Below, piece after piece: positions 28,155 to 33,101 of a stretch of 35,472 nt of DNA. Origin of the DNA: Candidatus Nomurabacteria bacterium CG1_02_43_90 (GTDB taxonomy: Bacteria; Patescibacteriota; Minisyncoccia; Phycocordibacterales; UBA1550); NCBI GenBank assembly GCA_001871765.1, contig MNVN01000018.1, positions 1 through 35,472 of the forward strand. The letters are read 5' to 3'. The stretch's first letter is position 1. Each line of letters opens with the position of its first letter. The position numbers and the translations under genes were made by a program. The notes under the pieces are model-generated. The model saw only the letters and a program-made list of their open reading frames with translations, was not told the origin of the DNA and ran no database searches.

Positions 28155-29333
28155 TTAGTTTTTTGTCCGCAGAGCGTCGTCTATCTCTCGAGCTATTTTT
28201 ATAAAATCTTTTTCCTTTTTGCCACGCGTGGTTTCTGCGGCAGTGCCAAGTCGGATACCCGAAGGGTCAGTAGGTGGGCACGTGTCAAACGGGATAGCAT
28301 TTTTGTTTACAATGATACCCACTTTTTCAAGTCGATCACTTGCTTCCCCTCCCCCCATACCTTTGCCATCCATCGACACATCTACCAAGAAGAGGTGGCT
28401 ATCCGTGCCCCCCGAAATAATTCTCCAGCCAAGTTTTGAAAGCTCACCAGCAAGCGCTTGTGCATTCTTCACTACCTGTTTTGCATATTTTTTAAAATCA
28501 CCTATCGATGCTTCTTTGAGTGCCACAACAACTCCTGCTATCTGGTTTATGTGGGGGCCACCTTGAAGCCCCGGAAAGACCGCCTTGTCTATTTTCTTGC
28601 CCAGCTCACGTACATCCTTTTTTGCAAAAATGAGGGCTCCACGGGGACCACGGAGCGTCTTATGGGTGGTTGTGGTTACAATATCTGCATACGGAAACGG
28701 TGAAGGATACACACCTCCTGCCACAAGCCCTGCCGTGTGTGACATATCCACCACAAGGTATGCACCGACGCTATCCGCAATCTCCCGAAACTTTTTCCAA
28801 TCAACAATACGTGCGTATGCCGTGAACCCTGCGATAATCATTTTTGGTTTTTCTCGCTTTGCAATTTTCGCAAGTTCTTCGTAATCAAGTTGCTCCGTTT
28901 CTTTCGAGAGCCCGTACGGCACTTGCATCCAAAATTTCCCCGTCGCGGATGCCTTGTGTCCGTGCGTTAAGTGTCCCCCTTGATCAAGCGACATGCCCAT
29001 CACTTTGCTCCCCAAAGGCAAGAGCGCTGTATAGACTGCCAAGTTTGCCGGCGACCCCGAGAGCGCTTGCACATTGACGTGCCATTCTTCTTTTTTAAGT
29101 TTAAATAATTTCAATGCGCGTGCAATGCAGAGGTTTTCTATTTTATCCACCACGGTATTCCCGCCATAGTAGCGCTTGCCTGCGTACCCCTCGGCATACT
29201 TATTAGTAAACTCTGAACCAAGTGCCATGAGCACATCTTTTGAAACATAGTTCTCCGACGCAATAAGGTTAATCACTTTTTTTTGTCGCGCCTTTTCTGC
29301 TTGAATAAGTTTTTCGATTTGTGTGTCGTTCAT
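28155..29333 (-). CDS. glyA: Serine hydroxymethyltransferase
   Basis: A 392-residue PLP enzyme converting serine and tetrahydrofolate to glycine and methylene-THF. Signatures: INLIASENYVSKDVL, FTNKYAEGYAGKRYYGGNTVVDKIE, NVQALSGSPANLAVY, VVDMSHTAGLVAGG and the PLP lysine in TTTTHKTLRGPRG (about residue 224), then GLQGGPHINQIAGVVVAL and RLGTAAETTRG. It is slightly shorter than the ~415 residues of E. coli GlyA. It follows dut by 14 bases. Methylene-THF is the one-carbon donor for ThyA, encoded next door on the other strand, so the neighbourhood is consistent. Confidence 0.97.
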   Translation of the reverse strand: MNDTQIEKLIQAEKARQKKVINLIASENYVSKDVLMALGSEFTNKYAEGYAGKRYYGGNTVVDKIENLCIARALKLFKLKKEEWHVNVQALSGSPANLAVYTALLPLGSKVMGMSLDQGGHLTHGHKASATGKFWMQVPYGLSKETEQLDYEELAKIAKREKPKMIIAGFTAYARIVDWKKFREIADSVGAYLVVDMSHTAGLVAGGVYPSPFPYADIVTTTTHKTLRGPRGALIFAKKDVRELGKKIDKAVFPGLQGGPHINQIAGVVVALKEASIGDFKKYAKQVVKNAQALAGELSKLGWRIISGGTDSHLFLVDVSMDGKGMGGGEASDRLEKVGIIVNKNAIPFDTCPPTDPSGIRLGTAAETTRGKKEKDFIKIAREIDDALRTKN

Positions 29334-29347
29334 TTTTAAAAAAATGA

Positions 29348-29770
29348 TTACTTCCCTGTACTTCCAAAACCACCTTCCCCGCGTGTGGCATCTGAGAGAT
29401 TTTCCACTTCCACTATCTCTGCGTGCTCCACTTTTTGAATAAGCATTTGCGCAACTTTGTGCCCTACAACAATCGTATAGTCCTCATTGCTCAAATTTAT
29501 CATTCCCGCTTTTATTTCCCCCCGATATCCTGCGTCGATTACCCCACCGAGATTTTTCAATCCGTGCTTTATCGAAAGTCCGCTTTTGTCCCATATAAGA
29601 CCGACATACCCGTCAGGAATCTCTATCGCTATCCCCGTACCGATAAGTACCCGTGCGCCTACGGATATAGTCACTGTCTCCGTCGCGAACAAATCAAACC
29701 CCGCATCGCCATGGTGTGCATAGGTGGGGATTTTTGCATCGGGGTGAACTTTTTTTATGTTGAGTTGCAT
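29348..29770 (-). CDS. dut: dUTP diphosphatase (trimeric dUTPase)
   Basis: All five dUTPase motifs are visible: DAGFDLFA, WDKSGLS, IDAGYRGEIKAGMIN, KVAQMLIQ and the C-terminal RGEGGFGSTGK. It hydrolyses dUTP to dUMP, keeping uracil out of DNA and supplying dUMP for thymidylate synthase. I use the ATG at 29770 (140 residues): a perfect TATAAT at 29778-29783 overlaps the earlier ATG (29779), and family proteins start with a short lead before the first motif. This makes the transcript almost leaderless. dut precedes glyA in one transcription unit. Confidence 0.95.
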   Translation of the reverse strand: MQLNIKKVHPDAKIPTYAHHGDAGFDLFATETVTISVGARVLIGTGIAIEIPDGYVGLIWDKSGLSIKHGLKNLGGVIDAGYRGEIKAGMINLSNEDYTIVVGHKVAQMLIQKVEHAEIVEVENLSDATRGEGGFGSTGK

Positions 29771-29824: not shown

Positions 29825-29881
29825 TCAGTCAGTAACTGAAGTTCATTATCAATCACAAACATCAACCAAATGGAGGCACTC

Positions 29882-30796
29882 ATGGCCAATCCACCTGTTG
29901 CAAACTATCTCCCCCTCGAACAGAGGGTTCCTGATTTTCAAATAAGGAACTTGCTTGAACACATCATGAAGGAAGGCCGTATCGTCCACCCCATACAAGG
30001 TGGCGAAGCACGGATGATTGTAGGTGCGCAATGCCACTTCAAAATGGCAAATGGAGCTCCTGTCATAAACTTACGTGATATTTCTGGATCCATGTTCTAC
30101 GGAGCAATCGCCGAGCATATCAGCTTCCTTAATGGCGCACAGACACTTGAGGAACTCGTTTCGTACGGCATGAACCCTCATTGGTGGGACCGCTGGGTAA
30201 CAAAGAAAAAATGTGCAGACTTCGGGCTTCCTGAGGGAAACCTTGGGACAGCTTCATACGGCGCTGTTTGGACAAGGTTCCCTACAAGGGACGGTGGTTT
30301 TTTTAACCAAATCACCGCAGTCATCGAGCAAATCAGGCGTGCACCACATTTGCGTACTCACAAAATCACCCCCTGGTTCCCTCCTGAAATTATCGGGCCA
30401 CCAGGGACACGGAAAGTGGTTGTTGCTCCTTGCCACGGAGAAGTGCACATCATCGTTGACCCCGAAACCAAGGAACTCATTGTGCATCATGTGCAAAGAA
30501 GTGGCGATCTCGCTGTTGGTGTGAAGTTTAATATCGTCCAGTACACATCACTCGGAATGATGTTGGCACAAATACTCGGATACACTTTTTCGGAGCTCGT
30601 GTATACATTTTCTGATGTGCACATCTATGAGGTGCAGTATCCGTTTGTTGAAGAACTCATCTCGCGTGAACCTTTCCCTTTCGGCAGAATCACTCTGCAA
30701 GAAGGGATAATGGATATTCATGATTTCCTGCCAGAGCACTTCACACTGTCGGAGTATCAAGCACATCCAAGGATGAACATTCCTACACCTGTTTGA
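29882..30796 (+). CDS. ThyA-family (thymidylate synthase-like) protein, divergent
   Basis: A 304-residue protein; the start is the ATG at 29882, five bases after TGGAGG (29871-29876). ThyA-type landmarks: WWDRWV, GNLGTASYGAVWTRF (compare GDLGPVYG-WR), FNQITAVIEQIRRAPHLRTHKITPW (compare DQ...NPDSRR...W), the catalytic Cys in VAPCHGEVHIIV (about residue 184), HHVQRSGDLAVGVKFNIVQYTSL (compare QRSxDxxLGxPFN) and DVHIYEVQ. So it should use a dUMP or dCMP substrate with a folate cofactor. Differences are notable: only one Arg of the SRR pair is kept, and the N-terminal DRTGTGT loop reads HPIQGGEARM. It could be a thymidylate synthase or a hydroxymethylase-like relative; I cannot decide by eye. A strong terminator follows. 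Confidence 0.85.
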   Translation: MANPPVANYLPLEQRVPDFQIRNLLEHIMKEGRIVHPIQGGEARMIVGAQCHFKMANGAPVINLRDISGSMFYGAIAEHISFLNGAQTLEELVSYGMNPHWWDRWVTKKKCADFGLPEGNLGTASYGAVWTRFPTRDGGFFNQITAVIEQIRRAPHLRTHKITPWFPPEIIGPPGTRKVVVAPCHGEVHIIVDPETKELIVHHVQRSGDLAVGVKFNIVQYTSLGMMLAQILGYTFSELVYTFSDVHIYEVQYPFVEELISREPFPFGRITLQEGIMDIHDFLPEHFTLSEYQAHPRMNIPTPV

Positions 30797-30929: not shown

Positions 30930-31409
30930 ATGCCAGAAGACAGTGCCGTAAACCTCGCGCACGCGCGAGGAAAAACAAAAGAGGTCTACGAAAAGATTAT
31001 GAAAGATAAGACTTGCCCCTTCTGCACAGACTTTTCAAAAAGAGGGGTGGCCCCGCAGTATCACACAAAGCCAATTATCACTGATGGAAAGTACTGGGTT
31101 CTCACGGAAAACTTCAACGCGTACAAAGGGGCAAAGTATCACTTTTTGATCGTCCATCGCAAGCATATTACCTCTTTTTCTGAATTAAAACCGGCAGCAC
31201 TCAAAGAGCTCGTGACCATCACCAAAAGGCTCAAGGAAGAGTTTAGTCTTCCTGCTGGCGTTCTCCTTTTTCGTTTTGGCGACACGGAGTACACAGGCGG
31301 AAGTGTGAACCATTTCCATGCGCACTTCATTCTCGGAGCAAAGTGTGTAGATGGCGGGGAAAATAAACCACTGCTCTTGTATGCAGGGTATGCATCTCCA
31401 GATACATAA
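30930..31409 (+). CDS. HIT-family protein (histidine triad nucleotide hydrolase/transferase-like)
   Basis: A 159-residue protein with the histidine triad HFHAHF (His128, His130, His132) preceded by TGGSVNHF, and upstream conserved His residues (YHFLIVHRKHI). Near the N-terminus CPFC (29-32) resembles the zinc-knuckle arm of some HIT proteins. HIT proteins hydrolyse or transfer nucleoside monophosphates from dinucleoside polyphosphates, AMP-lysine or NMP-sugars. The substrate here is unknown. A good Shine-Dalgarno (GAGGAG, eight bases before the ATG) is present. It shares its promoter pattern with the ThyA-like gene, which suggests a joint response. Confidence 0.93.
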   Translation: MPEDSAVNLAHARGKTKEVYEKIMKDKTCPFCTDFSKRGVAPQYHTKPIITDGKYWVLTENFNAYKGAKYHFLIVHRKHITSFSELKPAALKELVTITKRLKEEFSLPAGVLLFRFGDTEYTGGSVNHFHAHFILGAKCVDGGENKPLLLYAGYASPDT

Positions 31410-31477: not shown

Positions 31478-32332
31478 TTAGGTTTCGACATAAATTAGCT
31501 CAACCCCCTGATCACGCAAATCCTTCACCCCGTTCAAGTTCGAGTATCCGCCAGTAAAAAATACCCGTTGTATACCCGAAACAGAGATCTGACTCGCACA
31601 AATTGCACAAGGGAATGTCGTGACGTAGAGGTCTGCACCCTCAACAGAGATACCTCTTTTTGCTGCCTCAGTAATAATGGCGGCCTCTCCATGAATTGAA
31701 GTATAGAGCTCAACGTGTTCTCCTGGACCAAAATTATTCCTGGGGTCACCGTCAATATAGGGGGCGTATTCATTCGGCAGATGTTTATTGTAGGCAACAA
31801 TAATTTGCCCATTTTTACATCGAGCCATCGCTGCGACCTGTCGCCACCAGTCAGAACTTTTTGCTTGCTCTTGAGGAAGTATTCGCATATACCGCGAAAT
31901 TTCTTCTGCTTCAGGAGAACCTTTGTGGATAATTCTGTCTGCATCGGGAATCGCAGGAGTAAATCCAACTGACCTGCTCCAATCCCACCGCAAAAAAGTA
32001 GTGACGAAGGTTACTTCTGCTCCCTCAAAATGCCTTGCATACACCACGCGCGAAATATCTTCGTCCGGCATTACCAAAACAACGTCTTCTGTTGATTTCT
32101 CAAGGGTACCTACCGCACGGGAAAACCGCCGAACGTTGTACCCAAAACACTCAAGAATTTTTGCAGTTTCCTCAAAGTGTAGCGCCCGAATTTCCCGTAC
32201 AAAACGAGTGAGGTCAGGAACATCAGACGCCTCTAAAAGAAAAATATCCTTTACCCCACTTTCCTTCAGGAAATCCATATATCCCCTATGTAACACGGGG
32301 ATATAGGCAACAACTACCTTGGTTTTTTTCAT
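31478..32332 (-). CDS. Deoxycytidylate-deaminase-like protein with a degenerate nucleotidyltransferase-like N-terminus
   Basis: A 284-residue two-domain protein. Residues about 170-284 are a zinc-dependent CDA/dCMP-deaminase domain: HGEAAII (zinc His and catalytic Glu, about residue 212) and TTFPCAIC (zinc Cys pair, about 241-244), then the GIQRVFF...GYSN tail. The first ~110 residues (VVVAYIPVLHRGYMDFLKE..GVKDIFLLEASD) line up in pattern with the HxGH nucleotidyltransferase encoded next to it (VVLTQGVFDLIHEGHGKYLERA), but the HxGH is HRGY. The catalytic motif is therefore lost while the Rossmann-like pattern remains. The start overlaps the upstream gene by four bases (ATGA), so translation is coupled. 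Likely dCMP to dUMP, feeding ThyA; other deaminase substrates are possible. Confidence 0.85.
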   Translation of the reverse strand: MKKTKVVVAYIPVLHRGYMDFLKESGVKDIFLLEASDVPDLTRFVREIRALHFEETAKILECFGYNVRRFSRAVGTLEKSTEDVVLVMPDEDISRVVYARHFEGAEVTFVTTFLRWDWSRSVGFTPAIPDADRIIHKGSPEAEEISRYMRILPQEQAKSSDWWRQVAAMARCKNGQIIVAYNKHLPNEYAPYIDGDPRNNFGPGEHVELYTSIHGEAAIITEAAKRGISVEGADLYVTTFPCAICASQISVSGIQRVFFTGGYSNLNGVKDLRDQGVELIYVET

Positions 32333-32931
32333 GACTTAACCCCCATTTCTCGATAGTACCGCTGTATCACTTCATTGATCTCTGCTTCCAATCCTGAGAC
32401 TCCATCAATCATGAGACCACGAATTCGAGCAGTGCTTGATGTTTCTGCTTGAGGCTCAAAAATCTCGACCCGCCCAACATGCTGTTCGGTTTCTCTTTGT
32501 TTCTCGAGGGGAAAGTCGTTGGTCGTCGTAGACATCACGAACACATCAGGATGAAGCGCTTTATGAAGATAGTCAACGTCTTGCTCCGATGCTTGAAGAG
32601 TCCTGAGGGTGACGATGTCCACTGACCGTAAAAACGTGAGCATCCTGAGTCGTTCTGATTCCGGAACAACTGGACGATTGTCCCCCTTGCGCTTACGTGT
32701 GTATTCGTCAGTATCCACACCAACAATAAGGACATCTCCTTGAGCTCTTGCTCGCTCGAGATACTTTCCATGCCCTTCGTGAATCAAGTCAAACACTCCT
32801 TGCGTAAGAACAACCTTGTAGCCCGCATCTTGCAATGCCTTTGTAATAAGCTTAAGTTCCTCGAGGTTAGGGATAAACCTTTCCTCAAAAGACGCAGCTG
32901 GTGAAAGAATACTTCGTATACTGGTAGCCAT
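32329..32931 (-). CDS. Cytidylyltransferase/RfaE-like nucleotidyltransferase
   Basis: A 200-residue protein of the HxGH cytidylyltransferase superfamily. Motifs: TQGVFDLIHEGHGKYLERA (His51, His54), DVLIVGVDTDEYTRKRKGDNRPVVPESERLRML, and SSTARIRGL (the ISSTxI-type motif). It resembles the ADP-heptose-synthase/glycerol-3-phosphate cytidylyltransferase type that activates a phosphorylated substrate with a nucleotide. The start at 32931 is chosen because AAGGAGG lies six bases upstream, the strongest Shine-Dalgarno in the window; the track's 32952 start would include that site. The substrate is unknown. It is coupled to the deaminase gene and probably acts in the same pathway. Confidence 0.88.
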   Translation of the reverse strand: MATSIRSILSPAASFEERFIPNLEELKLITKALQDAGYKVVLTQGVFDLIHEGHGKYLERARAQGDVLIVGVDTDEYTRKRKGDNRPVVPESERLRMLTFLRSVDIVTLRTLQASEQDVDYLHKALHPDVFVMSTTTNDFPLEKQRETEQHVGRVEIFEPQAETSSTARIRGLMIDGVSGLEAEINEVIQRYYREMGVKS

Positions 32932-33001
32932 TTGATACCTCCTTCTCTGCATTTAGTTTTAAATAACGATATTTCTACGTTGGATACTACGGTAAAGAGA
33001 C

Positions 33002-33049
33002 GCGAAAGTAAAGGGCGACAACCGTGCGGTTGTCGCCCTTTACTTTCGC
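33002..33049. terminator. Long terminator-like hairpin 1 (22-bp stem)
   Basis: GCGAAAGTAAAGGGCGACAACC and its exact complement around a GTGC loop (33002-33023 / 33028-33049). It lies between the L11 gene and the nucleotidyltransferase gene. It has no T-run, so it may be an RNA-stability stem or a relic of a terminator. Confidence 0.65.
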
Positions 33050-33055
33050 CAAATT

Positions 33056-33101
33056 AATCCAAAAGAAAAATCCGCCCGCGGGCGGATTTTTCTTTTGGAT
33101 T
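33056..33101. terminator. Long terminator-like hairpin 2 (46-nt perfect palindrome)
   Basis: AATCCAAAAGAAAAATCCGC... and its complement meet at CCCG/CGGG with no loop. It starts eight bases beyond the rplK stop and carries T-rich tails on both strands. It ends the secE-nusG-rplK transcript. Confidence 0.85.

Follow-up and report, generated by a model that had tools for sequence, protein, structure and literature searches.

Genes at the locus

The window, meaning the whole 35,472-nucleotide stretch of DNA that was analysed, carries a gene for a two-domain protein (hereafter the fusion) in a cluster with a nucleotidyltransferase, a HIT-family protein and a thymidylate synthase (ThyA), flanked by dUTPase and glyA. 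The features are as follows.

28155..29333, minus strand: serine hydroxymethyltransferase (glyA), named by eye from the sequence
29348..29770, minus strand: dUTPase
29870..30796, plus strand: divergent thymidylate synthase, catalytic residues retained, dUMP-phosphate Arg21 and Arg127' substituted
30930..31409, plus strand: HIT-family protein of the cassette (PF01230, E 7e-8)
31478..32332, minus strand: the fusion, 284 aa, N-terminal pseudo-nucleotidyltransferase and C-terminal dCMP-type deaminase
31979..32332, minus strand: N-terminal domain (residues ~1-118), HIGH-superfamily nucleotidyltransferase fold by AlphaFold model and nearest PDB folds
32279..32290, minus strand: HRGY (residues 15-18), where HxGH is expected
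31982..31993, minus strand: LRWD (residues 114-117) past the last strand, at the site of the S-[ST]-T-x-x-x-R motif in transferases
31481..31930, minus strand: C-terminal Zn-dependent deaminase domain (residues ~135-284)
31685..31693, minus strand: HGE (residues 214-216), the catalytic HxE motif
31598..31612, minus strand: PCAIC (residues 241-245), the zinc-binding PCxxC motif
32329..32931, minus strand: stand-alone RfaE/TagD-like nucleotidyltransferase, 200 aa, overlapping the fusion gene by 4 nt
32770..32781, minus strand: HEGH, the intact HxGH of the stand-alone transferase

The fusion protein starts with MKKTKVVVAYIPVLHRGYMDFL, and its N-terminal VVVAYIPVLHRGYMDFL parallels VVLTQGVFDLIHEGHGKYL of the neighbour; the upstream gene contains KVVLTQGVFDLIHEGHGKYL. 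Both HRGY at the deaminase N-terminus and HEGH in the neighbour are present as the initial annotation had them, and the four-base overlap that it reported is exact (32329-32332, ATGA). The ATG at 32931 is the transferase start preferred by relatives, while an ATG at 32952 is open too. In Pfam, the deaminase domain matches dCMP_cyt_deam_1 (E 2e-13) and the neighbour matches CTP_transf_like (E 6e-17); the neighbour scores 103.7 bits against the heptose-1-phosphate adenylyltransferase equivalog, below the cut-off of 181.5. The glyA product, as named from sequence, would provide methylene-folate. Elsewhere in the window, a pair of strong, GC-rich inverted repeats that are likely terminators lies between rplK and the transferase gene (33000-33100), and an ORF at 590-1267 looks by eye like a REP-associated (Y1) transposase.

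Fold and descent of the N-terminal domain

The initial annotation had proposed that the N-terminal domain is a duplicated, dead copy of the neighbouring transferase. Within the single window protein, the likeness of the two motifs does not exceed chance: the HRGY site was not selected by an ungapped profile made from the transferase motif. The N-terminal domain of this protein has no Pfam match. A 22-sequence profile-profile comparison of the N-terminal domain with the transferase was likewise no better than shuffled columns, and the likeness became significant only when the wider family and the structure were added. Since the rows of a whole-protein VIA search were filled by deaminases, the domain was modelled alone (residues 1-120, AlphaFold, 48 sequences), giving a model with pLDDT 90, pTM 0.85 and the order b-a-b-a-a-b-a-b-a-b. 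The first six rows of its VIA search are all transferases of the HIGH type or a HIGH-like type (Z 7.7-8.4, aligned over 103-111 residues), led by TagD/GCT (2b7l, Z 8.4, 3.7 A over 103 residues) and including Fom1 cytidylyltransferase (5x3d, Z 8.3), B. subtilis GCT (Z 8.0) and HldC (5xf2, Z 7.7). FAD synthetases, NadM and numerous CoaD structures follow lower down; a Z of 8 is modest. Foldseek also places transferases in its best rows, but none falls below E 0.001. Structure prediction thus returned a TagD/HldC-type fold and not the unrelated fold that would have spoken against the initial annotation.

A bridging subfamily (f123) connects the two families. Five of its members (L055-L059) have N-terminal domains that match NCBIfam rfaE_dom_II at E 3e-6 to 5e-4, and its members reach 17-18.5 bits against a curated family-profile cut-off of 21. 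Its profile matches the rest of the N-terminal domain family with a probability of 99.2% (E 2e-19) and scores 35.7 against the cassette transferases, where the best of 300 shuffles reached 21.9. We conclude that the domain descends from nucleotidyltransferases, because the AlphaFold model, the bridging subfamily and four members that retain HxGH all indicate it. Nevertheless, the bridging profile scores 57-58 (E ~3e-9) against other, non-cassette RfaE-type transferases of the same class, and hence, of the proposed duplication, the transferase fold holds while copying of this particular neighbour finds no support. Divergence between the N-terminal domain and the transferases is too high for a tree.

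A probable conserved pocket in a degenerate transferase

Conservation was counted over 126 sequences of the N-terminal domain. At the HRGY site, H15 is kept in 120 of the 126, whereas the second His is Tyr in 118, and the family lacks both the Lys motif and the Ser-Thr/Arg motif of transferases; by comparison, H51, G53 and H54 are invariant in the stand-alone transferase of the cassette. R115 occurs in 124 of 126 sequences (the other two have gaps), and W116, R49 and P12 are near-invariant. Conservation of this kind indicates selection on a pocket rather than simple decay, and in the model the conserved residues appear to sit at the C-terminal strand ends, which would be the ligand edge of the fold. 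HxGH is intact in four members (L158 and L171, and the actinobacterial L197 and L204), and not every member need therefore have a dead domain; the initial annotation was right about a degenerate HxGH motif, and its word "dead" would apply to most of the family rather than to all of it.

The deaminase domain

The C-terminal domain has the fold of the S-TIM5 dCMP deaminase (4p9e, Z 17.4), with the HxE and PCxxC zinc motifs present, and it scores 45.6 bits against the NCBIfam ComEB equivalog, whose cut-off is 219.45. The G(Y/W)N(A/G) motif, which binds dCTP and dTTP in dCMP deaminases (PMC12088426), occurs in none of 122 fusions. Ordinary deaminases of the same class have GYVG, not GYNG, at this site, and therefore the argument from the missing allosteric motif is supportive but not decisive and rests on a wider set of differences. 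The Asn of HAExN, present in those ordinary deaminases, is missing from nearly all 122 fusions. The window's genome has a second small PF00383 deaminase on contig C13 (L070:3996-4460, 154 aa), which adjoins murC and by eye is not a typical TadA or ComEB.

A conserved gene cassette

Full-length relatives of the fusion occur in 22 of the 99 related genomes; across the class, about 33 of 285 genomes have one. In a phylogenetic profile with the transferase called at E<1e-30, all 22 relatives with the fusion have the transferase, as against none of the 77 without it. The tie to the neighbouring active transferase is obligate, in line with the initial annotation. Gene order in 48 loci is transferase, fusion, then convergent HIT, often DHFR, and ThyA, with some loci rearranged. 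The transferase adjoins the fusion or sits in the cluster at all loci whose contig permits: it is non-adjacent but elsewhere in the same cluster at two loci, and one further locus is a contig end. HIT and DHFR are themselves fused in three loci (L019:480-1442, L040:2397-3347 and L054:341-1303). At the last of these, the fusion gene (L054:1408-2196) is apparently frameshifted near its C-terminus, the match going on in another frame.

Scanning named genomes with the alignment of the transferase as query gave 80 loci, nearly all from Patescibacteria (Yonath-, Taylor-, Nomura-, Kaiser-, Adler-, Uhr-, Moran- and Saccharibacteria), together with Trebonia kvetii and another actinobacterial assembly. 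The deaminase adjoins the transferase in all but a few loci at contig ends, and in some loci the called deaminase gene covers the N-terminal part only. The phage and plasmid matches examined were ordinary deaminases only, and phage G gp316/gp317, considered as a split fusion, proved not to be one.

Replacement of ordinary deaminases and an altered thymidylate synthase

ThyA is found in each of the 22 genomes with the fusion. When genomes that encode ThyA are compared, few of those with the fusion have a Dcd or ComEB-type deaminase (3 of 22), as against most of those without it (35 of 39; Fisher p 3e-9, uncorrected for relatedness of the genomes); the cassette replaces the ordinary dCTP/dCMP deaminase. 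In Trebonia kvetii (9.3 Mb draft), the sole ThyA match is the cassette ThyA, and a search of the draft found neither ThyX nor Dcd, so that the cassette is the only thymidylate route found in this genome. Because of this gene content and the complementarity with Dcd/ComEB, the fusion very probably carries out the cytosine-deamination step.

The cassette synthase is itself altered. Four arginines, among them Arg21 and Arg127', hold the dUMP phosphate in ThyA (PMC6005164), and every cassette ThyA examined has lost Arg21, Arg127' or both (in the window, Arg21 is Ile and Arg127' is Thr), while Cys146, Asn177, Asp169 and Arg166 are retained. Of 19 canonical ThyA compared, 17 have both arginines and two have His at both sites. 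The cassette ThyA form one clade (100/99), and therefore the Arg loss is one event; repeated independent loss of Arg21 was considered and rejected, given this single clade and the three members that keep Arg21. The substitutions are suggestive of an altered phosphate environment. A distinct ThyA group near dCTP deaminase genes (L108-L112) has Asn177 changed to Asp, PCH to PCP and QRS to [VI]RS, changes that suggest a cytosine nucleotide as its substrate.

Function of the cassette

We favour, at slightly better than even confidence, a reading in which the fusion is a dCMP-type deaminase feeding the adjacent ThyA and its pseudo-transferase is a ligand-binding or docking module that replaces an allosteric site. 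The fusion would deaminate a cytosine deoxynucleotide, most likely dCMP to dUMP, and this dUMP would feed the adjacent synthase. The N-terminal domain, a degenerate HIGH-superfamily transferase in which transfer has presumably been lost in most members, keeps what appears to be a conserved pocket (H15, G17, R49, D/E90-92, R115 and W116); it would bind a ligand and dock, possibly in a physical complex, with the separately encoded active transferase, and would stand in for the allosteric dCTP/dTTP site of ordinary dCMP deaminases, which is missing in this family. Such a regulatory or docking role fits both the conserved residues and the lost allosteric motif. Docking alone would not account for the HIT protein and altered synthase that accompany the pair.

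One may argue that the N-terminal domain is a structural remnant or an oligomerisation scaffold, with the transferase retained close by because it serves the same regulon in an unrelated capacity. The degenerate fold and the tight packing of many Patescibacterial genes are compatible with this, but near-invariant polar pocket residues, and perfect co-occurrence with the transferase across very distant genomes and rearranged gene orders, are difficult to reconcile with it, and we consider it unlikely. A bifunctional protein, in which the N-terminal domain is a still-active nucleotidyltransferase with an altered active site, would account for the four members with intact HxGH and for the conserved set of charged residues; the Tyr that takes the place of the second His in most members and the absent transferase motifs make it very unlikely. 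That the fusion is an AvcD-like anti-phage dCTP deaminase is hardly credible: although its deaminase part weakly matches that of NF041025 and of the PADLOC dCTPase, the NF041025 score is 52.9 bits against a cut-off of 400, the N-terminal domain has a transferase fold rather than a P-loop, and the ThyA cassette is housekeeping-like.

A more far-reaching alternative, which we regard as decidedly unlikely, is a carrier-linked pathway in which the transferase would make dCDP-X from dCTP and X-P, the fusion would bind dCDP-X through its pseudo-transferase domain and deaminate it to dUDP-X, ThyA would methylate the product, and the HIT protein would free dTMP. It offers a step for each conserved co-occurring gene (transferase, fusion, ThyA and HIT), and it could accommodate both the absence from the fusion deaminase of the HAExN Asn that local canonical enzymes have and the loss of Arg21 or Arg127', which belong to the four dUMP-phosphate ligands, from a synthase with intact catalytic residues. 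However, we know of no carrier for such a pathway, the cassette ThyA retain Arg126' and Arg166, a dUMP-making dUTPase adjoins the synthase, and the Arg loss, confined to one clade, does not count as repeated independent evidence. In addition, a Vibrio ThyA that naturally lacks Arg127' still uses dUMP (PMC6005164).

Whether as a regulated dCMP-type deaminase, the reading we prefer, or as part of a carrier-linked route, the cassette has wider implications. Bacterial thymidylate routes are thought to be well charted. Within this conserved gene set, across Patescibacteria and in the isolate Trebonia kvetii, ThyA always comes with a nucleotidyltransferase, a pseudo-transferase-deaminase and a HIT protein, which points to a hitherto undescribed mode of operating or controlling an essential synthesis. 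Either a dead transferase has become the basis of a rebuilt deaminase control, or a pathway with a novel intermediate exists, and the latter, if true, would add a third mode of making thymidylate. Our search of the open-access literature found no paper on a pseudo-transferase-deaminase architecture or on a carrier-linked pathway.

Comparison with known systems

The fusion resembles dCMP deaminases (DCTD/ComEB; cyanophage S-TIM5, T4 and S. mutans) in its C-terminal fold, its HxE and PCxxC motifs and its adjacency to ThyA, and differs from them in the extra transferase-like N-terminal domain, the constant transferase partner, the lack of G(Y/W)N(A/G) and, mostly, the lack of the HAExN Asn. Its N-terminal domain shares the fold of RfaE/HldE domain II, HldC and TagD, of which the neighbouring gene encodes an intact member; unlike these, it has HRGY, has lost the other catalytic motifs and is attached to a deaminase. 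AvcD (NF041025) is also a two-domain deaminase with a nucleotide-related N-terminus, which in its case is a P-loop, and it belongs to defence whereas the fusion belongs to a ThyA cassette. CDADC1 is a dCTP deaminase of vertebrates whose N-terminal domain is dead (PMC12088426); it and the fusion are both nucleotide-metabolism deaminases in which the N-terminal domain is, or in most fusions would be, inactive, but that of CDADC1 is itself a deaminase and that of the fusion a transferase. As for the synthase, the naturally Arg127'-less ThyA of the Vibrio VAAP clade shares with the cassette ThyA both this loss and the change of Lys48 to Arg; unlike the cassette ThyA, it keeps Arg21, and no link to a transferase or fusion deaminase is reported for it (PMC6005164).

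Other fused deaminases were seen alongside this family. At L062:383-1396, L063:4008-5024, L064:4666-5676 and L065:4678-5685, an N-terminal dUTPase-like domain is joined to a dCMP-type deaminase domain at the C-terminus, in proteins of about 336 aa; in L062 and L063 an ordinary dCMP deaminase gene follows directly. A separate transferase-deaminase fusion (L073:4571-5404, also L075 and L076), whose RfaE-type domain is clear (TIGR02199, E 1.5e-13) and which has NIEH in place of HxGH, occurs in three genomes; in one of them the cassette fusion is present as well.
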